64,000 nucleotides of DNA from Glutinoglossum americanum (lineage: Eukaryota > Ascomycota > Geoglossomycetes > Geoglossales > Geoglossaceae), in contig JAGHQL010000034.1 in assembly GCA_020080175.1 (NCBI GenBank), forward strand, positions 102,068 through 166,067. The letters run 5' to 3'. The notes under the pieces are model-generated. The model was not told the origin of the DNA and did no database searches. It saw only the letters and a program-made list of their open reading frames with translations. The translations under genes and the position numbers were made by a program. This document shows, in pieces, positions 14,070 through 54,056 of this stretch. The stretch's first letter is position 1; each line of letters begins with the position of its first letter.

Positions 14070-17000
14070 ATGGCAGAACGTTCTGGGGTCTCCAACAGAA
14101 ACGCCGCTTCTACGGCGAACAATGTAAACTCGACCATTTTCCGATTCTGCCCCAAGTACCCTTTTTTTGCTAATTAAGCTGACAAAATTTGTGTCTCAGG
14201 CACGACCTGTGCGTCTCGGCGAGTTCAACACGATTTCGTCCGGTAGAGCCAACGGTGAGGAATCTCGGTCTTCACAAGGCTCAGGCTTGGGCCAGACACT
14301 AGGGAATGGGGGCTCGAACTGGAACGGCGGGATCTGGGCGACTCCTTCTCTGGGAAATGCGTTTGGAAGCGCGAACAATGAAATTCCTCGACCACGCGGT
14401 GAGCACATATACAAGCTCTGGAAACTTCATGGTCGTGCTGACGGTTTTACGACAGAAGATAACTCTTATCTTTCTGGAGGTTCTGGGTCTTTTGAAGGCA
14501 AGATAGGTTCGGGCTCACTTGTAGCATCCTCCGACGTGGACACCTGGGGAAGTACTCGACAAGGGATACCTTGGAATGGAAACGAAACAACTTCACCTGC
14601 CATGTCCAGTGTCCCCATGACTGAAGCTGGGGGGTCTCCCGTTCGGCACCGCAACAGCAACCCCAACGCACCGCCGCTATCTTTATCCGATAATCCTCGT
14701 AGCCCGTCTCCATTCTTTTCTGTGGCCCGTCAGTCTGCCATTGGTCACCATAGCTCGCCGAGCAAGCCTTTCCTAGACCCTACCACTGGAAGCTTTGTGG
14801 CACCTCGCACCGCTGATGAGAGATCAAGCAATTTCGGAACTCCTGGAGACGGAAGAGGTCTAAGCAGATTCAGCACAGATGAGGAGAATCGGAGACATAT
14901 CAATTCTATTGTTGGTGGTGCATTGGATAGCGATGAAGCAAAGCGTCCTGGCAGGAACAACCGCCGACCCGTTCAATCGTCAGACTTACTCGGGTCGAAG
15001 AATGGGGCAGCGGCAAGGAGCGAGAGTCTTCCTCCTAACAGGGAAAGTACATCGCCTTCGATAGGTGCCCAGCATAACTCTCACATTGATAATACTGCTC
15101 CATATACCCAGTTTCCCCAAGTGGCAACACCTTTCAATCGACCAACTCACCATGGGCATACTTCCTCATTCTCTTCAGCCCAAGGCAGTTTACGGAAATT
15201 TGACGATTTGAATCGCGACTCTCAGGACGCTGAGGTGCTTGCGAGATTTGGGAGGTTCAGCCTAGACGGAAACGGGGATACAAATTCTTATACCCAACAG
15301 CCTAGCACTGGGGCCCCACAACCGTATTCGTCCCAGCCGCCGTACGATTTTGGCTATCACCGTCAGATGCATCCAAACATGCCACCGAATCTCTGGGGTT
15401 TGGATGATGGCACTTACGAACGCGGCCAGGAGTCCTTCACCCCAGACGGCTTCCCTGACAACGCATTTGGTGACCAATTCAGCGGGTTCAGGGTTCCTCG
15501 AATGAACAATGATCGGGGTACAATCTCTCCAGGCGGAAGCGACTACCGCCGAAATATCCACAGCCCGTCATATTATTCTACCGGTGGGACACCGCCCGCG
15601 AGTACCGATCCTTTCCGTGCACCATCTCGAGGAGCTAACCAGCCTGGCCGTGCACCACTGAACGGACATGTCCTAGACAAAAAGCTTCGGGGCCTCCAGC
15701 AGCAGCAGACCTACAATTCTCCCCAGCCCAATGCAATGATGATGCGTAATGAGCCTTATCGAGGGGCATTCTCACCTCACCCTTACGACTATCTTCGAGT
15801 CAGCCCACTTGCACCTTCGCTCACGCCATTCTTTTCCGGAATTCCAATGGCCGCAATTCCTGGCGGACCGATCGCTCCTCGAGGACCCGCACGCGACCAA
15901 CAAGATATAGGCCACAATCTCCGAAGTCTCCTACTGGAAGAGTTCCGTTCCAACACCAAGACTAGCAAGCGCTACGAGTTGAAGGTAGATTTACGATGCC
16001 AGAACAAACAGAACTCAGCTTACAATTTACAGGATATTTACAACCATATAGTTGAATTTAGTGGCGATCAACACGGTTCGCGGTTCATTCAGCAAAAGCT
16101 AGAGACTGCCAACAGCGATGAAAAGGACCAGGTTTTTCGCGAGATTCGGCCGAATTCCCTGCAACTGATGACCGATGTTTTTGGCAATTATGTGATCCAG
16201 AAGTTTTTCGAACATGGGAACCAAGTTCAAAAGACAATTTTGGCCGAGCAGATGAAGGGTCACATCTTGACTCTATCCATGCAAATGTATGGCTGCCGCG
16301 TAGTCCAGAAAGTTTGTTCCCCATTCCCCCATATCTTAGCCCACTCCACCGTTTACTGACCGCCACAGGCCTTGGAGCATATCCTGACCGATCAACAAGC
16401 TGCGCTCGTGAGAGAACTTGATGGCCACGTCCTCAAGTGCGTGAAAGACCAGAACGGGAACCATGTCATTCAGAAGGCCATCGAAAGAGTGCCCGCTGAA
16501 CACATTCAGTTCATCATCAAGGCCTTTACTGGGCAGGTTCACAGTCTCGCTACCCACCCGTATGGATGTCGCGTCATACAGAGGATGTTAGAACACTGCG
16601 AAGAAAAGGCACAGACGTCAATCCTACAGGAGCTCCACTCTTGTACTTGGTCGTTGGTTCAGGATCAATACGGAAATTATGTCACCCAACACGTAATTGA
16701 GCACGGAAAAGAGGAAGACAAAGCCAAGATCATCGCCCTTGTTACTGGACAGATACTCCTCTTCTCAAAACACAAGTTTGCATCGAATGTCGTCGAGAAG
16801 AGTATTGAGTTCGGGTCGGATGACCAACGTCGAGATATTCTGGCTGCCCTGACCGCCGCCCGCCCAGATGGCACTTCACCACTACAGACCTTGATGAGAG
16901 ACCAATATGGAAACTATGTGATCCGTAAGTTCCTTTCGCACATCCAACCACTCGCTTGCTGATAGTATTACACAGAGAAACTTTTGGGACAACTCAAAGG

Positions 17001-17373
17001 AGCAGACCACGAGAGGCTTGTCGAACAAATAAGGCCGCAGCTCCAGGCATTGAAGAAATTTACATATGGGAAACAGATCACTGCTGTAAGCTAAGACCTA
17101 TCTGAAGCAGAATTCCCAGTAGCCTCTGACAATACTTCCCAGATTGAAAAACTCATTTCTACCTCCACCTCCCCTTCCCAGTCCACGACCCCCCCACCTG
17201 GATCATCCGCTGCCCCTACACCCCCCATGACATCCGAAGCGCAGTCTCCACAAAGCAGTTCTCTCCCTAGCACAAACACCAGCACAATTGATGGCCCTTT
17301 CGATACCGAGGCAACCGATAAGAAACAAAATAGCGGCGAATCGGGGCCCCAGGTCAGCATTGTTTCCGCTTGA
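14070..17373 (+). CDS. PUF3: Pumilio-family RNA-binding protein, Puf3 type
   Basis: RNA-binding regulator expected to bind UGUA-containing 3' UTR motifs; yeast Puf3 controls mRNAs for mitochondrial biogenesis. Exons from 14200 are clear (14200-16311, 16369-16924, 16976-17085, 17143-17373). The first exon, 14070-14123, is my choice because its phase fits; a more obvious donor at 14156 would break the frame. The model gives 1020 residues. About 620 N-terminal residues are low-complexity, rich in Ser, Gly, Asn and Pro. The Pumilio domain follows with eight repeats, showing [80 protein letters not shown] and YGNYVIQKLL. These three-residue signatures match those of Puf3 orthologues. A Ser/Thr/Pro-rich tail ends the protein. 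Confidence 0.9.
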
Positions 17374-18680: not shown

Positions 18681-20793
18681 ATGTCTTCAAGGGCTCTACG
18701 TAAGGCGCAACGCCAACGTGAAGAGGAATTAGGTTCACTCAATCGGGATGACCACTCGGAACTGGATGTGACCTTTGATCGGGATGAACTCGACACCATC
18801 GCTGCACAGGCCAAACCGAACCCCTTTGCCATGTTAGGGGTTGAAGATGGAGAGGAAGAAGAAGCACCAGAAGATGAACAAGTCCCGGAAAGTACAGATA
18901 TCGTGAAGAAATCTATTTCCAAGCCAAAAAATAAGAAAAGAAAAAAGAAGGGCAAGAATAAAGCGCCTTCTGGAATGGCAGACGAACAGCTCGACGAAAT
19001 TGATGTAGCTCTACAATCCCTTGCTCTGAAAAACACCGCAACAAACAGACCTTCCGGTCAAGGCTTGACTGAAGCACAAGCGGCGGAGAATACTGAGTGC
19101 TTTTGCGAATTGCTGGCCATCGACACGCAGGGCCTTAATGCGACAAACGAGATGCGCCGTCTGTTTGGGCGAGTTGCTCTGGAGACAGATAGTGGGAACA
19201 ACCGCGCAGCTACCGGTGGTGGGAGGAGACGGGGAAGAGGGGAAGGCCTTGCTGGGGCGGTTGCAGGACAAGTGCCGGGGATGAGAGGAACGAGTTTGGG
19301 GCTTCGTAGGAATGTCTTTATCCAGGGGAAGGATACCTGGCCCCAAGCAACGGCAGGAGGGCTGGGAATGGAGGTTGTGGAGAAGAGGGAGGACGGCACG
19401 GTGGAATATAGGTTCGTGCACAACACAGCATACCAAGACGTGCAGAGGCAGTTTTTCATGTGTGTGGAGTCGTTTGACCCGGAGAGGATGATACAGCTTT
19501 TGGTTCACAACCGTAAGTATCACACGCAGCCTTACATTTACTCTCCTTTCTCACGTCTCTTTTTTTTCTCCTCCACTCTCCCGATCTAACAAGCACACAA
19601 CAAAAGCATATCATATTTCAACGCTCCTACAAGTTCATGAAATCGCTTTAGCGGAGAGAGACCATTCCACCGCTGGCGATCTCCTGGAGCGGGCTCTCTT
19701 CTCCCTTGGCCGCTCTTGTCACTCGACATTCGCAGCCAATCTTGCACAAGGCAAGGCGAGACTCAATTTTCGCAGGGCAGAAAATCGAGAGCTATGGCTC
19801 GCAACATGGAGATACATCAAGAACCTTGGAAGGCGAGGGACATGGCGGACAACATTTGAGTGGGCAAAACTCTTGCTGAGTCTCAGTCCCGGTGAAGACC
19901 CCTATTGCGTTGGTCTGATCATCGACCAGCTCGCGTTGAGGGCCAAGCTTGGGAAAGAACTGCTCGATCTCGCAGGTAGCCCAGTATTTGCCTCACAATG
20001 GGTCGACTACCCCAACATAGCATTCTCCGTGGCTCTAGCGCATGACCAACTCAAACAGCCAGAGAGAGCCAGATCAGCTTTGGCAGCGGCCATCCAAAAA
20101 TTCCCGTGGATCGTCTCGAGGATGTTAAAGGAACTCAACGTTGAGCGAGTTCCACCAACACTCTGGGGCTTGGAACCTCTAACCGTACCCGATCGGCTAC
20201 TATCTGAGTTGTACGTCGTCCGGTCAAAGGATATTTGGAATACGCCGGAAGCGACATCTCTTCTCGTCAAGGCTGCTGAAAAGGTCACCGAAATTGGCAG
20301 TCCATCACCCCGCTGGGACTCTCCCATAACGATCAGCCAAGCCCGCCACGTCCTTCTTAACGATATCCCTGCCCTTATTTCCCTCCTACCACAACACCTC
20401 CTCGATCCGGCAACATCGCCTCTAGATCCTTTTCCTCCAGTCGATGACGTGTCGCCATATACGACGCCAGCCAGCCCAACGGCTCACCAAGACACTGAAA
20501 TTGTACGTGAGTTGCGAAATATCGAAGCTTTCTTTCTCAGTCTTTGTCCGCCGACCGAGACGGCACCCGATACCGTCCCCTGGCAGGAGTTGCACACCTA
20601 CGTTGGGGAGGTGGCTCAAAACAACAATGCTAACGAGTCAACCATTGCAGATCGCGCGAGACGCCTGACCCAACTGCTCGAGGCGCTGGAGGCACGCCTA
20701 TCTCGGCATTCACCGCCTAGCACAGAACAAACGCAAACAGCTGGCGGAGTCCAGACGCGAGCACCCCCTCGCGATACGCCAGCTGACTCTTGA
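18681..20793 (+). CDS. RQC1: Rqc1/TCF25-like ribosome quality control protein
   Basis: Member of the TCF25/Nulp1/Rqc1 family. Yeast Rqc1 works in the ribosome quality control complex with Ltn1, which ubiquitinates stalled nascent chains on 60S subunits. Two exons (18681-19512 and 19607-20793, 94-nt intron) give 672 residues. The N-terminus is acidic and then strongly basic (SKPKNKKRKKKGKNKA). A glycine/arginine-rich stretch follows, then the conserved TCF25 core, with YQDVQRQFFMCVESFDPE and, across the splice, YHISTLLQVHEIALAERDHS and AGDLLERALFSLGRS. This core is predicted to be alpha-helical repeats. The C-terminus is variable. Older annotations call this family a transcription factor. Confidence 0.88.
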
Positions 20794-41937: not shown

Positions 41938-44900
41938 ATGGCGGTGGTACGTATTGCCTCTCTAAAACATTTTGATGAACCATGGATGGCTGACCCAGTT
42001 ATCAGGCCTTACCTGCAACTCCACCAAACTCTTGGGAGTGTTGCCAAGTCGTAGATGAAAAACTCAAGAGGTATTATCGCTGGATGAAGGACGTGAGCAC
42101 ACTTTAAAACCTTGCAGACAGATTGGCCAAATGGTCGTTGTTGGTTTCGAAGGTCTTATCGTATCCGATGCAATCAAAACAATGATCGAGAAATACCATG
42201 TCGGTAGCGTTTTCCTAACGCGCAAAAATATGAAGGGCAAGTTTGCATGTTCGGTGGTTGTAGATGAACCGTTCTAAGGGAAACACTGCAGATGGACCAC
42301 AAATCGCCAGCTTAACGAAGGAATTACAGAGCTTTGCAAAATCTGCGGGCCAAGAACACCCGCTTCTAATAGGGACAGATCAGGAAAATGGAATGGTGAG
42401 AGCATTCATTCGGCGATTACCAGATTCGTCTTCAAAGGCCTTGGAGTATTGCACCGCCACCAAGTAGTGCATGACGACTTATAGGACGGTGCTCTACGCC
42501 GCCTTAGAAATCCTATTGCTTTTCAAGTCTTTCAATATATCATGTCATCGCCTGGAATGGTGTCAAGAGACCGAGGGTTTCGCGGGGGCCAAGACTCACG
42601 ATTGATGTTCAATTGACCGAAAAACCGTAATCGGTCGGTTTTGGCCGTTGCAATATAGATTTAAGTCAAGGGGTTTCATCAGCAGAGTTCGCCTATCTGT
42701 TTCCCACCGGCTGGTCTTCAGAGGCCTTGCCCAATGTGAAACCGCGTTTTTCTTTGACGGTGGTGCAATACTCCAAGGTGGACCTTGACGACCGCACACG
42801 GCATCTTCCACTGACATTCGTTTACCCACTAGGTTACTAGGCTGGGCGATGGGAAGCGGTCGACGCAGTTCCCCGGCTCCATGGCCCTCGGAGCGACACG
42901 ATCACCATCCTTAGCATACGATATTGCTAAGGCTACGGCAAGAGAGCTTAGGGCAGTTGGGATCAACTGGAATTTTGCCCCAGTTTTGGATGTACTAACT
43001 GAATCCAAGGAGCCCGCGGTCACTGTTAGGTGCTTTAGCGATGACCCTCAGATCGTCGGGAAGTTTGGTGGAGCTTTTGTGCAAGGGCTCCGAGTCGGTG
43101 GAATAGCGTCATGCGTGAAGCACTTTCCTGGCACAGCCTCTCTGGGAAACGAGAACAGGTATCCCTGCAGCTCCGAATCTGAAAAGGCGAAATCTGATCT
43201 TGAGGATCATGAACTTGTGCCCTTCAGACGAGGAGTGGCGCACGATGGTCTTGACAGCATTATGCTAACACATTCGGTTCTGCATTCCGGCGAGAAGGCG
43301 GCTATGGTTCGCAATGCGAAGCACGTGGTCCACGACTTGCTTCGTCGGCAGCTTGGGTTTCGAGGCATAGTCGTCAGCGATTGCTCTGACCTTTCAGAAA
43401 ATACAAGGTGTTCGGCGCAATTTCCGATTATCGCCATCGAGACTGGTTCTGATATGATCATCATGAACGACCAACTATCGGCGCTAACATCGACTGTAGA
43501 AGGGATATATAAGGCGTTCATTAACGGAAATCTGCGGGCGGAGATGATGGAAAGAGCATCCGAAAGGATTGCCACCCTCAAGAAGCACTATCTCAACTGG
43601 GAAGTCGCCCTAGGAGACTTGGGGGAATGCGCAATATCATCACTAATGCTAGAACACCAAGTACTGGCGCGTAAGGCATATGAAGCCTCGATAACGGCCG
43701 TCCGTGCTGACAAGTCAACGATGTCTGTTTTTAGCCGGTTGCAAGAAACAGACATTGTTCTACTGCTGACACCAGTTGTGCGACCGATATATTCGCCTGA
43801 TGATACATTCGGTCCGATAGACCCCTTTGAGTGTTTTGGCCGAGCGCTTGCGTCTAGGCATAAGAGGATACGGCACGTCCCTTATACACTCGAAAACGGA
43901 ATTACTTCGGTCCACGTGGCTTTCATCAAAAGAGCCACAGCTGTTGTTCTAGTGACCTGTAATTCAATCCGCCCACACCAAAGTCCGCAGATCAGGAATG
44001 CTAAGGTTGTCCGAGCTGCGTGCGGGAGTAAGCCATTAGTAGCTTTGGCAGCTTGTGATCCTTGCGACCTCCTGGATGATAAGTCTTTTCCAACATACAT
44101 ATGCACTTACGAGTATACAAAGCCAGCACTTGAGACAGCAGCAAGCATCATATTTGGTGAACGCCATGCACCGGGTGTCCTTCCACTATCAACTCCAGGC
44201 TCGCAAGTCAAGCGCCCACAGCACATTTGGAAGGTTGACATCTGGGAAAAGAGAAGAGATGCCTTTAGTACTGCGGATTTGTGGAAGCAAGTGCTTGGAC
44301 GACGGTGGCCCATGGACGCGGCTACGCTCAGCGCGCTCCTCGATCGGCCGGGGTTTTCAAAGCATTATATTGTACGGAGTCCAGCGTCGAAGGAGCTCCT
44401 TGGTTTGTGCGCCACCTACCTCACACCGCGCGGTCAGGGCGAGGTCATTGGGTCTCTGGCTCTTCTGCTTGTGCGCTCATCGCACCTAAATCAGGGCATT
44501 GGCCTGGCACTTCACAACGTTGCAGTCAGAGAACTTAGCAATAATGCTGGCGTCGTGTCTATGCAGCTGGGAAGTGTCTTCCCCCGGTTTTTCCCCGGTC
44601 TGCCGGTTGACCTTACTGCCAAAGATCTTGACTGGTTCTCACACCGAGGCTGGAAGCTGGGAGATGACAAATTCGTCTCCGACCTGTTCTTGGACATGGA
44701 AAAGGACAGACAGCGATGGCAAGCGCCTTTAGATGACACCTCTGTAACAAAAGAAAGCGACAGTCTGCCCATCTCTTTCAGTGTCTGCCAGCCCGGCCAG
44801 TTCCCCGCATTAATAAAATTCGAGGAGCGGTTCTTCCCTCCACGTAGTTACCCCGGCTGGTTGGAAAAATACCAGAGCCTTAAAATTACGGATGACATCG

Positions 44901-45407
44901 CAGACATCATCCTCGCCACCGTCACCACAAGGAGCCCCCCAAGTCAGTCCTATGATACCGCTATCATTGGTGCAGCACTAGTCTACTCGCCCGTCGGCAG
45001 CAGCCAAGTTGCGAAAGACATCCCTTGGCCCAAGACAATGGGTGAGAAAGTCGGCGGTATCGCGTGTTTGAGCGTCCATCGTACGTCCATATCATAAGCC
45101 CTTTTAGCATTTAATGGTTTACAACTTGAGCTAACTGAGCTCACTCCCAGCGGACTACCGGACTGAAACGACTACCAAAGGTCTCCTCCGCGCTTCAATT
45201 GCGGAGCTTAGCACTCGTGGTATTACCGGATGCTTTGTTGAGTGGGTCGTTACGGACCTTGAGTGGTATAATAGCCTAGGTTAGTGTGCCAAACATTTAC
45301 AGAGCAGGGCTGCTTTTCCTGCCTTTCGGAAGTATCGTTTACTAAATGTCTGGGAAATAGGGTTTTCGCAATGGGGTAAGTATCGTGAGATCTGGCGGAG
45401 TATATAG
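41938..45407 (+). CDS. GH3 (NagZ-like) glycosidase domain fused to GNAT acetyltransferase domain
   Basis: Inferred exons: 41938-41946, 42006-42070, 42118-42235, 42279-42395, 42833-45080, 45151-45279 and 45361-45407 (about 910 residues). The N-terminal half is glycoside hydrolase family 3, close to beta-N-acetylglucosaminidases, with IGQMVVVGFEGL, YHVGSVFLTRKN, LLIGTDQENGMV, FPGSMALGA, INWNFAPVLDV and KHFPG (about residue 199). Its likely nucleophile Asp is in GIVVSD (about residue 286). The C-terminal 320 residues look like a GNAT acetyltransferase (LLLVRSSHLNQGIGLALHNVA resembles the acetyl-CoA loop). I recall this fusion in other filamentous fungi. Oddities: the junction 42236-42278 has a GC-type donor (GCAAGT) and fits the frame only if one base is ignored; intron 42396-42832 is 437 nt; and the usual GHGDT..DSH loop is replaced. 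It may be a diverged or decaying gene. Confidence 0.75.
42396..42832 (+). other. unusually long intron in the GH3-GNAT gene
   Basis: Donor GTGAGA follows ENGM and acceptor CACTAG precedes VTRLGDGK, matching the family sequence on both sides. At 437 nt it is several times longer than any other intron in the window, which suggests inserted sequence. An imperfect inverted repeat (CCGAAAAACCG / CGGTCGGTTTTGG) lies near 42617-42642. Confidence 0.65.
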
Positions 45408-46061: not shown

Positions 46062-47678
<1,617 letters not shown>

Positions 47679-49014
47679 GGCTATTGATTAAGTCGAGATA
47701 GACGTTGTCTAAAGAACAAAAACTGGATCGAAAGAAGACAAGAAAAGCGCGCTGGGTATATTGCTACTACTAGCAAGCGCAGGAGATGGCCTTTGTTTTG
47801 GAGATCTGGTATCGATGAGGATACAATGAAGGAGGTTGATGTTGGGAAGATGTGAGCGGGTTAAAAGTCCGTAGGGTTGTGGGCGAAATGCGGGAGGTCA
47901 GACTCCTAATTAGCAGCAGTTAGATTGTTGCCTAATTTGGAGCTTTTGATGGAAAGTCGCGGCGCCTGTCCCATGCCAAAGGACGCGTAAAATCTCTTGG
48001 CATATAGAAGAAACCAGAAATCCGTAAATCCATCACTCGCGCTCACCGAGCTGGCGCCGCTTTAAAGGGTGAGCGGGGTGAGCCTGGGTGAGCCTGGGTG
48101 ATGCTCACCCGGAGTTCGCGCACGAGCATACCGCTTCATCCCCCTCGGCACCCCAAACAAAAATGGACCCCGTCCCAGATATAAAGGGCTTTAGGTACCC
48201 TTCTAGTCTGGATATCCTTCTACTGTGGCCTGCACTCCTTCGACTGTGGCATTTTGCTTATCGACGTCGGGGGAAAGCATGAGATGGCATGCGAGCATAC
48301 TTCCCTTTCCCGATAGATGGCCTTGCAGTGGAGGTACAGGGTTTAAGGGTGGGGCACCATTTGATAGTAATTTTCTTTAACCCCCACAAGGCACACCCGT
48401 AGAGTTGAAGGGCTGTGCATAAAGGGGAGAGGGGGAGGGGAATGTACGCATTTCTAAGTGCATCTCTACGGGAAGAGGATGGAGGGCTCTACGTAAAGGA
48501 GGAGACATGTTGTTAAGCACGGCTCTCTTAGTGATCTCCCTTTCCGATTTCCTTGTGCTTTTCTTGTTGTTGCCATGCTAATATGTAACACTTATAGCCT
48601 AGTACAGTATTTATCATACCTCACGTTTTCCTGGTGTTGAAAACGCAACCCTTGAAAGTCACGCCAATATCCAACCTCTGTTATAGGTTAACACCGCGTT
48701 AGGTAACCATCAAGGTTCTCACCATCCTTTATATAGGAGATTCCTCCCGCGTAGCTAGCTAGTTCGTTCAATCAATCAAGCATTCATTCCTCCGTCCAAC
48801 ATCCTCTTGTTTATTCCCTCTTTTTCCTTCCCCGAAACAAAAGTAGCCTGTTTTAAGATCCACCCAGATAGTTGTACAATAACAACACCAGATTTTAACA
48901 TAGCGCGGATTAAGGGAACCTGTTGACAGGCCCAATCCTCATCACAACTCGCCAAATCACACCTTCTATCTTCGGCCACCCTGACTTTTTCTTACAGTAG
49001 TGCATAGTTTCACC
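47679..49014. other. intergenic, actin promoter and leader
   Basis: 1.3 kb between the divergent actin and zinc-finger loci. No gene supported; a 64-codon frame at 48088-48282 has no features. CT-rich stretches near the actin start are typical of strong fungal promoters. Confidence 0.45.
48067..48110. repeat. GGGTGAGCCT tandem repeat with inverted half-copy
   Basis: About three copies of a 10-base GGGTGAGC-type unit followed by GCTCACCC, its inverted form, about 390 bases upstream of the actin start codon. Confidence 0.8.
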
Positions 49015-49626
49015 ATGGCTGGCAGATCGCGGAATGGTAGTAGCAACGGCAGAAACAAGAGCAGGGGTGGCCGCTCTGCCTCCACTTCCAGCAGTGAAAA
49101 ACAACTCCCGATTGAGGCCTTTCTACCTCCTCAAACGGGCCTAGCAACTAAGAGAAGATGTGCAAGTTCCTCAAGAAGGCCAGTTGAGTCCGATAGTCTA
49201 TCTACTCGCAACCTCTTAGCAAGCATGGCCTTTCAACAACGGTCATCAGCTGGTTCGTCTGGCGGGGCGTTGCACCCGGACGACACGTCGGTACCTGGCA
49301 GACCTCCACCATCATCACACACAGTTGGTCAGTCTGTTTCAGAATACTCTTCGCATGACATGCTGTCGCCAAGTATCAACCAGAATTAGTCAACGAGCCA
49401 CGCTCGACCACCAAGCCCCGTTGCTAGCAGAACTCGCTCAAAGTCCTCGACGAAGCCTACACAGATCCAAGGTGTCGTACGTAGCTCAGTCTTACGAGGT
49501 AGATCTCAGCAACAATCCTTCATCGGCGGGCTCTCTAGCACAAACCTGCTCTCGCCCAACACGTCACTACCACAACAACCTAATCAATTAGGGAGGCGAG
49601 TGTTCACTGAAACCCATGGCAGGAAG
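49015..49626 (+). pseudogene. disordered N-terminal segment of the zinc-finger/exonuclease locus
   Basis: Begins with ATG at 49015 (MAGRSRNGSSNGRNKSRGGR). One frame runs to TAA at 49624-49626 but is interrupted by TAG at 49387-49389. On both sides of the TAG the composition is the same Ser/Arg/Gln/Pro-rich type, which continues in the next frame from 49616. This suggests one original coding region. A 40-nt GT-AG segment (starting GTGTTC near 49600 and ending CCTCAG near 49640) would join it in frame to the next segment, but it is short for an intron here, and no splice solution for the TAG was found. It could also be independent noncoding sequence. Confidence 0.4.
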
Positions 49627-51095
49627 TAAACGACCTCAGTCACCGAGAAAGTATAGACAGTCCACGCTAGCTACTGGTAGGTTTCATGGAGGCACTGTGA
49701 ACCAACAGCCATCTACTGTGGCCGGCCATTCGAGCACACCTTTGATCTCAACAAGCATGCTACTCCTACCCGATCTGGAGCAACTGCCAAGAGATGCTCC
49801 ATCGAGTACCGCTTCGAAGAGGACCTTTTCTCAGTTACCAACAAAGTACACACAGTCTAAGCTGACTACTAATAGCTTCTACCAGCAAGCTAACGACGCC
49901 CAGCGGTCACCTTCCATCCCCGGCAATTCCTTCGCCTGGCCTTCTAACCGAAGTTCTACTTCGAACGGTTTGCCACCTTCGACTCCCTCAAGTCAGCTAA
50001 TAAATCGAGGGCATTCTATGCAACCTATTATGAACGGGACTCGATCTCAGTTGAATGTACCCCAAATAGGCCGCCCCAAGGTTATGGGCTTCACCACTAA
50101 ATTACCGCGTCAACTATCCCCCAAAGTCGCCTCTCCCACTGTTCCTGGTGTTGAACAGGACCAAAGCTCGACGGAGGAACTCAGCGAGGGTAGCAACCCG
50201 AGTAAAGTCTCATTAGAGCTAACCGCTACACCAGCAACCGATAATCACGCCAGGCCTTGGACGTTCGTCAGGAGAACAACAACAGAGGGACGACTCCAAT
50301 TGCCGCCCGCGGAGAAACTTGAGGCCACAAGAGCCCTATCGGAGAACCAGCCGAGATGTCGTTATTGTCTCATGTACTTTGTGACGGACGATGCTCTGGA
50401 AAAGCACATCAACAAAAAGCACCCCAACGGGCCCACTGCTGAATGTAACTGGAACAACTCCGGTTGTGATAAGAGGATTCGAGATCCGCAACAACTGAAA
50501 GAGCACATTAGATACGAGCATGAGCACGCACCTCCGCGACACGGAAACTGGGCAGGGCCTCGGATCGGAGGTAGCGTCCTTCGCCGTTGCGAGAATTGCG
50601 GGGATGACTTTCTTTTGCTGCGCAGGCACAAGCCAAGCTGCGGAAATTACCATCAGTGCCCAGTATGCAATATTCGGTTCAGCAGAACGGAAGGCTTTGG
50701 GCTACACCTCAAGACGCATAAGACTGACCGCGAAAGGTTCCATTGCACTTGGAATGGCTGTTGTGAATCCTATGCCACTAGGCTTGGATTACAACGCCAC
50801 ATTCGAGGCTTTCACAATAACGAGAGTTTCTTACTCCTACTGTGATAAGGAATATACTGTTCACGGTATTTCACACCATTTGGGGAAACATCGCAGACCG
50901 CTTGGGGAGAGAAAATACAAATGCAAACAGGAAGGGTGTTCGGCATCGTACTTGACTCCTCCCGGTCTAAGATCACATACCCTTTGCATGCATCTAAGAA
51001 TTGGAATCGAGTGCGACATCAATGGGTGTGGTGCGAAATTCAATTGCGAAAGTGGCTGGACTCTACACTGCAAATTGAAAACATTCAGAGGCTGA
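49616..51095 (+). CDS. C2H2 zinc-finger array protein, with a frame shift near 50.83 kb
   Basis: A frame of 409 codons (49616-50845) has about 240 residues of disordered Ser/Thr/Pro/Gln-rich sequence, then an array of Cys2-His2-like fingers from 50357. Examples are CRYCLMYFVTDDALEKHINKKH, in a CxxC...HxxxxH pattern, then CNWNNSGCDKRI...HIRYEH, CENCGDDF, CPVCNIRFSRTEGFGLHLKTH and CTWNGCCESYATRLGLQRHIRGFH. The frame ends at 50845, but the array continues in the +1 frame from about 50823 to 51095: YCDKEYTVHGISHHLGKH, CKQEGCSASYLTPPGLRSHTLCMH and CDINGCGAKF. So a one-base shift lies inside 50823-50845. I saw no intron that would repair it without deleting a finger. Expected role: sequence-specific binding of DNA or RNA. 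Confidence 0.6.
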
Positions 51096-52446
51096 AGTTG
51101 CGCAACGTGCTCGCGCGAGATTAGCAGCGGGCTGTCTGCGATCCAGGTTGGCCAGGAGGGCCAAGGCGGTAAAGGGCTTATGTACAGTATTCATGGGCTG
51201 CCAAAACAAAGCTGTCATCGATACGATGGGGTTTCTTCCATCGTGCGAAGAACATCGCAAACGCTACTATGAGCTCACGGCGAGGCGATTATACCACAAC
51301 GTATTCAACACTAAGAGGGCGGGCTGGGGAGTCGATGTAAACACTCCGGATGAAATGGCTGCTTGCCTGGCAACAGTCCCTATCCCGCCAACTATTGTGC
51401 AACTATGCCGTCACATCGAACACCAGAATGCAGTTGAGCGAGTGTTCTGCATTGATACAGAATTCGTGAGATTCACGCCAAAGGATAGGGAAGGGGAAAT
51501 AACAATCCCAGTCGAAATTGCAGTATACGACCTCAATGGAGAAGTAGTCATTGACACTCTCATCAAATACGACCAGCCGGTCGAGGAACTTTTGGCTGGT
51601 GCTCCTCATACCCCCTCAGAAGCGAAGTTCAGTTGGGGTGTTGCACAGAGGATCTATGGCTCGAGGTCCCAAACTTCTGGCACAACCATTGACGATATTC
51701 GAGATACACTACTCAATGCAGGCATGAATTCGAATTCTAGTCTGATTGAATGGTCACTTTCCAGAACCGATCGACGAAGGCTGGAAACGATCATGGGAGA
51801 GCACACTCCAAAGACTTCGATCTTACTTCCAGTACATTGGAGGAAGGTTCTCCGGGGATTCCTGAGCATGTCTTTATCTTACTTCCATCAGTTCCTCTAT
51901 CCGGACTCGAGGCTTCACAAACGAGCCCATCGAGCTGGCCCAGACACGCTTATGCTAATTGATACAATCAGAGCTCTCATCGACCTCAGTCACCGAGATA
52001 AAGAATTGGTCCAGAGCACTCTTGACAACTTGATACAGACTAACGAGGAGATACTGCATCCTCAGAAGCAACTACGAAGGGAGCTCAGCGTTAATGACAA
52101 CCATAGTGAGGATGACGACATTAGTAGCGATAACGACGAGCCCGACATAGAGTCTGCGGCGAAGCAGGTAGTGAAGGAGATAACAGACGACGACAGAGAA
52201 CTTCTTGCTCTGTTCGAGGAATATTGTCAAACCCAACGGTTGGCGCACGAGGCTACCAATATGATCGGCTTTCACAGCGCTTCAACAGAGGATCAGATGG
52301 TAGGCGAGGGTGACCCAGAGACCCTTAAGTACTTACAGGCATTTGCGAGTGTCCAAGAAGAACAAGCGATATTAGGAAGTGACAATGAAGAATTTGAGGG
52401 ATTGGCTGGCAATAACGCCGAAGACGAGGCAGATGGAGGTGGATGA
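51079..52446 (+). CDS. DEDD-type 3'-5' exonuclease-like protein (continuation of zinc-finger locus)
   Basis: Open from 51079 to TGA near 52446, about 455 codons. The first ATG is at 51193, but the sequence upstream (AEVAQRARARLAAGCLRSRL) looks coding and probably continues the zinc-finger protein. That join needs either another shift or a 58-nt GT-AG intron ending at 51088. A Cys/His block (CTVFMGC...PSCEEHRKRYYEL) comes first. The exonuclease core follows, with motif I CIDTEFVRF (Asp at 51454, Glu at 51460) and a candidate motif III HRAGPD at 51928-51945, matching HxAxxD of DEDDh nucleases. A clear motif II Asp is not obvious. The C-terminus is acidic. The family may act in RNA or DNA trimming; no characterised homologue was recognised. 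Confidence 0.6.
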   Translation, partial: KHSEAEVAQRARARLAAGCLRSRLARRAKAVKGLCTVFMGCQNKAVIDTMGFLPSCEEHRKRYYELTARRLYHNVFNTKRAGWGVDVNTPDEMAACLATVPIPPTIVQLCRHIEHQNAVERVFCIDTEFVRFTPKDREGEITIPVEIAVYDLNGEVVIDTLIKYDQPVEELLAGAPHTPSEAKFSWGVAQRIYGSRSQTSGTTIDDIRDTLLNAGMNSNSSLIEWSLSRTDRRRLETIMGEHTPKTSILLPVHWRKVLRGFLSMSLSYFHQFLYPDSRLHKRAHRAGPDTLMLIDTIRALIDLSHRDKELVQSTLDNLIQTNEEILHPQKQLRRELSVNDNHSEDDDISSDNDEPDIESAAKQVVKEITDDDRELLALFEEYCQTQRLAHEATNMIGFHSASTEDQMVGEGDPETLKYLQAFASVQEEQAILGSDNEEFEGLAGNNAEDEADGGG

Positions 52447-53276
52447 CCAACAAGCTAAGTAGATTCTTTCAGGAGGAAGGCCCGTGAGCTGCTATTAAAT
52501 TGTGGTAATGCCTGGACTGCCTTGGCTAGAGGCCTCAACATCTCAATCGCCCAACGTGAGCCCTGAAGGCCCCCAACGGTTTACTGCTCATATGCTATAT
52601 AGCGCCTGTTTTCCATGTACCTTAGAATAAAAACATAGCAACCACAATCAAGAAAATCACTTTTATGCTATATGCATCGCAATCAAGCCCCTGATCGAAG
52701 CCTAACCTACTCTCCAAAGTGTGTTTCAAGAACCTTCCGGATTCAAAGTGGAAAAACATAAACGTTCCTTATCTCAGCAATAATTTCCCGTTAATCACAT
52801 ATCCCACCTTGCTCAAAGCCCCCACAAGCTAATGTTTTTCTACAGCCATGATACTTCAATTCAACTCTTGTCTAGAATCACGCAATTAACACCCTATTCT
52901 CCCTCTAATAGCCGTATCTATTTCGCCACGGTTATAGGGTGAGCAGCAATTATACAAGCCTTTTTTGAGCTCAGGGTTGATATCCTATGCACGAATAAGA
53001 ATAAGAGGCTGTCTTAGAGCACCGCATCCCATTCCGCGGCCAAACTGCATTCGGCTGTGGCTCTTAGTAGCCCATATAAATTTGTAGTTAGAAGTATGTA
53101 TTAGAAAATAATAGACCGTTGATATATTGATACCCACTACATGGGTGCTAGTTAACATCCGCGACTGACTGAGGTGGTCTTTAAAGCGGCACTAACTGTG
53201 TCAGCGCGAGCGAAGGATTATGTGTCTTTAAATTCAATATCTACAGCGCAGTCAGGAAAGAAGGCGTAGAGAGAAT
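52447..53276. other. intergenic
   Basis: AT-rich 830 bases with no gene recognised. Holds the 3' flank of the exonuclease frame and the PPCDC promoter. Confidence 0.5.
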
Positions 53277-54056
53277 ATGGCACAGGAGAGCATGTCAAAT
53301 AGCACAGTGTTTAACCCAGGAGTCGCTTTACCTGCTCATCACCCCGCCAGCATCTCTACCCCGCTCGTCGCTGAGGAGTACTTGAATGACGGAAAACGCC
53401 ATCTCCTTCTATGCGCCAGTGGCTCTGTAGCATCGATCAAGCTGCCTCACATTATCCAAGCGCTCTCTCACCACCGAAATCTCTCCATCAGAATAATCCT
53501 CACTAAGTCTGCCGAGAAATTCCTCAATGGTCAAAGCCGAGAACAACCTCTTGCCAAATCCTTAAACTTATTGACAAATGTTGATGGCGTCTACTACGAC
53601 GAAGACGAATGGAACCGCCCTTGGACTAGAGGTGGTGGAATCCTTCATATTGAATTGAGGCGCTGGAATGAATTGATGGTCATCGCGCCACTGTCTGCGA
53701 ATTCAATGGCGAAGATAGTGGGTGGCTTCGCTGATAATCTCCTCACAACAGTAATTCGGGCGTGGGACACCACTGGGGAGATGCAACGGGACCAGATCCC
53801 AAAGCGGATCGTGGTTGCGCCGGCTATGAACACGGGGATGTGGCGGCACCCTGTTACAAGGAAGCACATTAAGGTTCTTGAGGATGAATGGGGAATTGAT
53901 GGGCATGGAACTGGCTGGATCGAGGTCCTGAGGCCTACTGAGAAAGAACTGGCGTGTGGCGATGTTGGGGACGGCGCCATGCGAGAATGGGGAGACATTG
54001 TCAAGCTGATCGAACTAAGATTGGGCTTGAATGAAGACTATGGCTGCGATAACTAG
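53277..54056 (+). CDS. phosphopantothenoylcysteine decarboxylase (Hal3/CoaC flavoprotein)
   Basis: FMN-dependent enzyme of coenzyme A synthesis that decarboxylates 4'-phosphopantothenoylcysteine to 4'-phosphopantetheine. Intronless, 259 residues. Visible motifs: FMN-binding LLLCASGSVASIKLPHI, the catalytic His in ILHIELRRW, APLSANSMAKIVGGFADNLLT, the PXMNXXMW substrate loop in VAPAMNTGMWRHP, and the flexible flap with its catalytic Cys in LACGDVGDGAM. All residues needed for activity appear present, so this should be the active decarboxylase rather than an inactive Hal3-type moonlighting subunit. The acidic tail typical of yeast Sis2/Vhs3 is missing. Confidence 0.92.
   Translation: MAQESMSNSTVFNPGVALPAHHPASISTPLVAEEYLNDGKRHLLLCASGSVASIKLPHIIQALSHHRNLSIRIILTKSAEKFLNGQSREQPLAKSLNLLTNVDGVYYDEDEWNRPWTRGGGILHIELRRWNELMVIAPLSANSMAKIVGGFADNLLTTVIRAWDTTGEMQRDQIPKRIVVAPAMNTGMWRHPVTRKHIKVLEDEWGIDGHGTGWIEVLRPTEKELACGDVGDGAMREWGDIVKLIELRLGLNEDYGCDN

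Follow-up and report, generated by a model that had tools for sequence, protein, structure and literature searches.

A locus of the fungus Glutinoglossum americanum, found at positions 49015-52446 of the window (the whole stretch of 64,000 nucleotides that was analysed, from contig JAGHQL010000034.1), is best read as one locus in which C2H2 zinc fingers are followed by a DEDDh-like nuclease. The account that we prefer, with a probability of about 0.42, is that of a single-copy gene whose intact form would encode one protein with both parts, and that is present in this genome as a pseudogene or a fragment. This intact form is proposed to start with a disordered leader and some eight fingers of the C2H2 type, followed by a Cys/His knuckle, a 3'-5' exonuclease core of DEDDh-like type and an acidic tail. 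DEDDh enzymes remove nucleotides from 3' ends with the participation of two metal ions. In the proposed protein, the fingers would grip a nucleic acid, either RNA or DNA, the two-metal DEDDh-like site would trim the 3' end of the molecule held by the fingers, and the leader and the tail would mediate contacts. With the frame interrupted within the array of fingers, a full-length product is not to be expected, and the locus would yield no more than a truncated finger protein or the product of the nuclease ORF.

Layout of the locus and the finger array

Three-frame translation of 49015-52446 revealed that the segments lie head to tail on the plus strand, as a preliminary description of this DNA had said, and that they follow each other in frames 1, 2, 3 and 1 (Table 1). 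The same description had the frame advancing by +1 at each junction; the net moves are indeed 1 to 2, 2 to 3 and 3 to 1, but the interruptions in the assembly are four, i.e., the in-frame TAG at 49387, the change from frame 1 to 2 before 49616, the change from 2 to 3 near 50815-50845, and the change from 3 to 1 near 51080-51095. Within 49390-49626, frame 2 is open as well as frame 1, until a TAG at 49589. The ORFs of 455 and 417 codons of the locus are longer than any in 200 windows simulated with the first-order base statistics of the real one, where the maximum was 322 codons; the frame-3 ORF of 198 codons is unremarkable, with 0.83 such ORFs per simulated window.

Table 1. Features of the locus and its flanks, in positions of the window.
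Feature	Position	Strand	Remarks
Inverted repeat, left arm	48027-48067	+	41 nt, 80%; inside a dispersed repeat of about 260 nt
Serine/arginine-rich leader, probably disordered	49015-49386	+	Frame 1, from translation; ATG 49015, stop TAG 49387-49389
Leader continuation or intron	49390-49626	+	Three-frame translation; frame 1 open past the TAG until TAA 49627
Low-complexity linker, then five finger-like motifs	49616-50845	+	Frame 2; TGA 50843
Finger-like motifs of frame 2	First Cys 50357, 50444, 50588, 50657, 50744	+	From motif reading; 50588 is C2HC
Frame change 2 to 3	50816-50845	+	Complete finger ending at 50815 on the left, incomplete finger on the right
Three finger-like motifs	50832-51095	+	Frame 3; TGA 51093
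Finger-like motifs of frame 3	Cys 50841, 50922, 51012	+	Only 50922 complete
455-codon frame: Cys/His-rich knuckle, DEDDh-like core, acidic C-terminal tail	51079-52446	+	Frame 1
Cys/His-rich knuckle	about 51181-51255	+	First Cys 51181; the first ATG of the frame (51193) lies inside the knuckle
DEDDh-like core	51394-52089	+	D51454, E51460, D51769, H51928, D51943 in DEDDh order
Inverted repeat, right arm	53179-53219	-	41 nt, 80%

Codon usage is a poor separator of the reading frames at 49015-52446. When scored against nine ORFs from the 64-kb window, some of them unverified as genes, it points to frame 2 at 49616-50820 and to frame 1 at 51100-52443, and frame 1 is also the best for 49015-49386 (0.043 versus -0.063 and -0.151). 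The score is ambiguous for 49390-49605 (0.005 versus -0.009), and at 50832-51085 frame 3 scores below frame 2 (-0.080 versus -0.066). The earlier statement that coding character carries through each junction finds no support in these two stretches, where it is the finger spacing alone that speaks for continuity. The leader at 49015-49386 gave no significant match in Pfam. An identical stretch of 18 nt occurs in the leader/linker (49631-49648) and in the nuclease frame (51981-51998), 2350 bases apart.

Eight finger-like motifs were found in total, five in frame 2 and three in frame 3, which agrees with the seven or eight C2H2-like fingers originally proposed, although two of them are incomplete and one is of the C2HC type. 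The motif at 50841 has no first Cys. That at Cys 51012, with the spacing C-x4-C-x3-F-x5-W-x2-H within one frame, lacks the last His in frame. To be counted as a C2H2 array, a segment had to contain C-x2-4-C-x12-H-x3-5-H motifs and a match to Pfam zf-C2H2 above the cut-off, and both were found here. The frame-2 array matched zf-C2H2_4 with 32.1 and 40.4 bits (cut-off 27) and zf-C2H2 with 28.8 and 30.9 bits (cut-off 25.2); the E value for zf-C2H2_4 was 1.3e-07, and 2.8e-10 when 50336-50830 was searched on its own. The array in this frame contains three strict motifs, a number that was equalled in none of 5000 shuffles. In the frame-3 piece a single strict motif is present, a number reached in 85 of 5000 shuffles, and the Pfam matches of this piece were weak (zf-C2H2_aberr, E 0.045; zf-C2H2_4, E 0.11). 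Judged by Pfam, the presence of the fingers is certain. The profile searches suggested for each segment placed the frame-2 fingers above the Pfam cut-offs, and gave no significant match for the leader or for the nuclease piece.

Introns, decay or assembly error

The interruptions could be explained by introns, by decay of the gene or by errors in the assembly. In the leader, candidate GT-AG introns of about 220-370 nt would excise the TAG at 49387 and connect frames 1 and 2; one example, at 49328-49622, has 295 nt (GTCAGT...GCAG). Since one candidate intron could remove them, the breaks in the leader prove nothing. In the array, the change from frame 2 to 3 is confined to the 25 bases between the finger end at 50815 and the Cys at 50841, and no GT-AG intron fits wholly between these two points. 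A candidate intron at 50842-50896 (55 nt, GTGATA...GCAG) would keep every complete finger and remove the incomplete one. For the change from frame 3 to 1 there is a candidate at 51031-51088 (58 nt, GTGCGA...TCAG), which would cut the motif at Cys 51012; no GT was found between the His of this motif and the TGA at 51093. Both frame changes of the array fall in incomplete fingers.

The TCP-1 controls were drawn from ten contigs with TCP-1/Hsp60 matches, nine of which were listed by frame. In two TCP-1 genes and the PUF gene of the window, which were read base by base, the junctions are GT-AG introns. A frame-joining GT-AG candidate was located by script at 15 of 16 TCP-1 exon junctions, and the remaining one is an intron by eye. 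The best-placed control introns are mostly of 43-87 nt and mostly have a G at intron position 5; the two array candidates are of ordinary length for this genome, and this G is present in GTGCGA and absent in GTGATA. As the control genes are interrupted only at places that suit an intron, a general indel error is not evident; an assembly error at this locus is possible.

The strongest alternative is that the gene is intact and that its breaks are either introns or, besides a leader intron, an assembly indel or two, so that the locus would encode a working finger-tethered exonuclease. This explanation is doubtful, albeit one that carries real weight: the 455-codon nuclease frame has no internal stop, which is unusual for an old pseudogene, and retains all five of the expected residues; a GT-AG candidate of ordinary length is available at every break, and the 5' site of the candidate at 51031-51088 resembles those of the control genes. 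Nevertheless, with the two array introns an incomplete finger would be lost entirely and a second one would lose its core, the 5' site GTGATA departs from most of the best-placed control introns, and the control genes do not point to an indel problem. Decay is favoured over splicing because the array introns would delete finger-like coding, which we weigh as real, and the gene is more likely broken than intact in this genome. The preliminary description had envisaged a nucleic-acid-guided trimming enzyme. A locus of fingers followed by a nuclease is the best reading, but a working enzyme is unsupported here, because the frame of the array is broken twice unless short introns that delete fingers are invoked.

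Two other processes were considered. Every net frame move is +1, and for this reason programmed +1 frameshifting was taken into account; it was judged unlikely. RIP was set aside as the cause of decay; the first half of the locus is slightly high in TpA/ApT: this ratio is 0.99 for 49015-50845 and 0.62 for 50846-52446, versus 0.64-0.90 in 4-kb blocks of the window, and the second RIP index is 1.11 and 1.29, respectively, versus 1.09-1.32 in the blocks.

The nuclease piece

The residues named in the preliminary description, D51454, E51460 and HRAGPD at 51928, are present at these positions, and for the Asp of the second motif, which that description had asked for, there is a candidate at 51769 that was chosen by eye. 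In all, D51454, E51460, D51769, H51928 and D51943 follow the DEDDh order (DxE, D, H-x4-D). It is probable, from the motif order and a profile comparison, that the piece is DEDDh-like. When the 417-residue piece was shuffled 20000 times, a strict pattern of this order, written after the sequence had been seen, arose in 41 shuffles, and in 10 when its first 300 residues were shuffled as often; with a loose pattern these counts were 1544 and 401, respectively. Applied to 42 long ORFs from the window and the loci, both patterns picked three strings: two overlapping copies of the frame studied here, and a third that begins with the open frame of L008, an RNase_T match.

A small DEDDh profile was built from 14 domains, 11 bacterial and three from the same genome. 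The core scored 6.9 bits against it with hmmsearch, a value reached by five of 10000 shuffles, the best of which had 10.8 bits; among 69 control frames, mostly arbitrary, the best other open frame scored 1.4 bits. Alignment with hhalign to 13 DEDDh domains gave a weak match that covers motif I only (probability 1.5%, P 0.034). Searches of Pfam, NCBIfam and the PDB sequences returned nothing credible for the piece up to E 10. Membership of PF00929 was to be decided by a match above the cut-off; as no match was listed up to E 10, the piece was not assigned to this family. Viral contigs were searched for relatives; six stretches fitted a pattern, and none was confirmed.

These results also allow another interpretation, namely that the nuclease piece is an unrelated domain with look-alike motifs and no DEDDh enzyme. 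The empty database searches, the weak hhalign result, the ease with which the loose pattern arises in shuffles and the post hoc nature of the strict one speak for this. We regard this interpretation as unlikely, since the strict motif order is rare in shuffles, the small-profile result favours DEDDh, and among the 42 long ORFs the patterns chose only this locus and a string tied to an RNase_T match.

Still less probable is the presence of two genes, i.e., a finger protein that ends near 50845 and a separate nuclease that starts at the ATG at 51193. The stops at 50843 and 51093, and the position of this in-frame ATG ahead of the core, are compatible with such an arrangement. However, the frame-3 fingers continue between the two supposed genes, one of them complete at 50922, just 97 bases separate the frame-3 stop from the ATG, and a protein starting there would lose the first Cys of the knuckle. 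We infer, rather, that the two parts derive from one ancestral protein, whose exonuclease activity would reside in the DEDDh-like core.

Copy number, flanks and known systems

The genome searched, which we take to be that of a filamentous fungus, comprises 25.77 Mb in 317 contigs, and its introns are short and of the GT-AG type. Searches with the nuclease piece, with the finger piece and with the DNA detected the locus as the sole full match, and the other finger matches resemble ordinary C2H2 genes. A decayed second copy was considered at contig C46 (L007, L051; E 0.087), but with two stops in the match it was treated as chance, and no other well-scoring piece of the gene was found nearby. 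The best finger matches outside the locus are the C2H2 genes L003-L006; in about 3 kb around each of them, the nuclease piece gave no match better than E 0.5.

An inverted repeat encloses the gene (Table 1), and its score was reached by none of 100 Markov controls. Its left arm lies inside a dispersed repeat (window 47985-48245; L055-L061) for which the genome has 25 matches, some being two pieces of one copy. The commonest core of this repeat is found around GCTCACC...GCCGCTTTAAAG...GGTGAGC, and a 35-nt core has seven occurrences at three or fewer mismatches, compared with none for a control pattern. At one of the five other loci with a close match, a further copy stands in direct orientation. 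A DxE in motif I is typical of exonucleases and not of DDE enzymes. A 5.2-kb DNA transposon bounded by terminal inverted repeats of 41 nt, with the locus as its interior and the ORF as a transposase or a passenger, is very improbable in spite of the score of the repeat, given the dispersed nature of the left arm, the lack at the five other close-match loci of an inverted partner (24/40 identities) within about 9.5 kb inward, the lack of a target-site duplication of at least 5 bases at matching offsets, the single copy detected and the DxE motif. The two arms are thus taken, with some doubt, as copies of the dispersed repeat rather than as transposon ends.

Within the same genome, the motifs of the nuclease piece are like those of three DEDDh enzymes: L010 and L009, which are labelled ISG20-like and oligoribonuclease-like from their PDB matches, and L008, which we take to be PAN2-like. 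All three exceed the curated RNase_T cut-off; the locus is absent from these three genome matches. In QIP of Neurospora we know of no finger array. QIP is comparable as a fungal DEDDh exonuclease of RNA silencing, according to the available text of PMC4778953.

The nearest known layout, by description, is that of Znf3 (CNAG_02700) of Cryptococcus, a large fungal protein for which the available part of PMC4778953 reports three zinc fingers, a coiled coil and a 'putative ribonuclease conserved domain'. The same source indicates that Znf3 is essential for RNAi, that it is needed for mitotic and sex-induced silencing, that it is located in P-bodies, and that its gene was lost in C. deuterogattii. 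Excerpts of other reports describe three C2H2 fingers in a protein termed unique to Cryptococcus (PMC3744442) and three independent losses of the gene within this genus (PMC11185503); in the S15 legend of the latter, Znf3 is shown with fingers and coiled coils only. The differences are that Znf3 is from a basidiomycete, has about 1515-1561 residues, three or four fingers and coiled coils, and that the class of its ribonuclease domain is unnamed in the available part of PMC4778953. Of the Znf3-like layout, the locus has the fingers and probably the nuclease, and a single open frame is absent from this assembly unless introns are invoked. The previous claim that no characterised protein has this layout was, in view of Znf3, too strong. 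In the part of the open-licence literature that was surveyed, no fungal C2H2-DEDDh protein was found besides this lead; zinc fingers are listed among the commonest companions of RNase H-like domains in the portion of PMC3985635 available.

From profile matches, the genome appears to carry a rich RNA-silencing set of Argonaute, RNA-dependent polymerase and RNase III genes: Piwi matches above curated cut-offs are on four contigs (C45, C131, C241 and C62), RdRP matches above the cut-off on five (C190, C81, C306, C133 and C285), and Ribonuclease_3 matches above curated cut-offs on three. A silencing role for the locus is therefore possible, though not favoured. A more speculative proposal, which we consider improbable, is that DEDDh exonucleases guided by fingers form an unrecognised family in related fungi, where they would act in RNA silencing or in the control of transposons as the ascomycete counterpart of Znf3. 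The family would be prone to repeated loss, and this locus would be a freshly dead or oddly spliced member of it. Provided that the nuclease is genuine and that intact relatives occur, the finger array of such a protein would select what a 3'-5' exonuclease acts on, and the protein would offer a lead to the role of the ribonuclease part described for RNAi factors of the Znf3 type. Should the gene be dead in this genome alone, its losses across species could be compared with transposon load and RNAi status.

The loci that adjoin this one are a glycoside hydrolase family 3 gene (42881-45097), an actin-like gene on the minus strand (46320-47147) and a flavoprotein (PF02441) gene (53277-54056). 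Elsewhere in the window there are a Pumilio-family (PUF) RNA-binding gene with GT-AG introns (14167-17090) and a TCF25-like gene with two long open frames (18681-20793).
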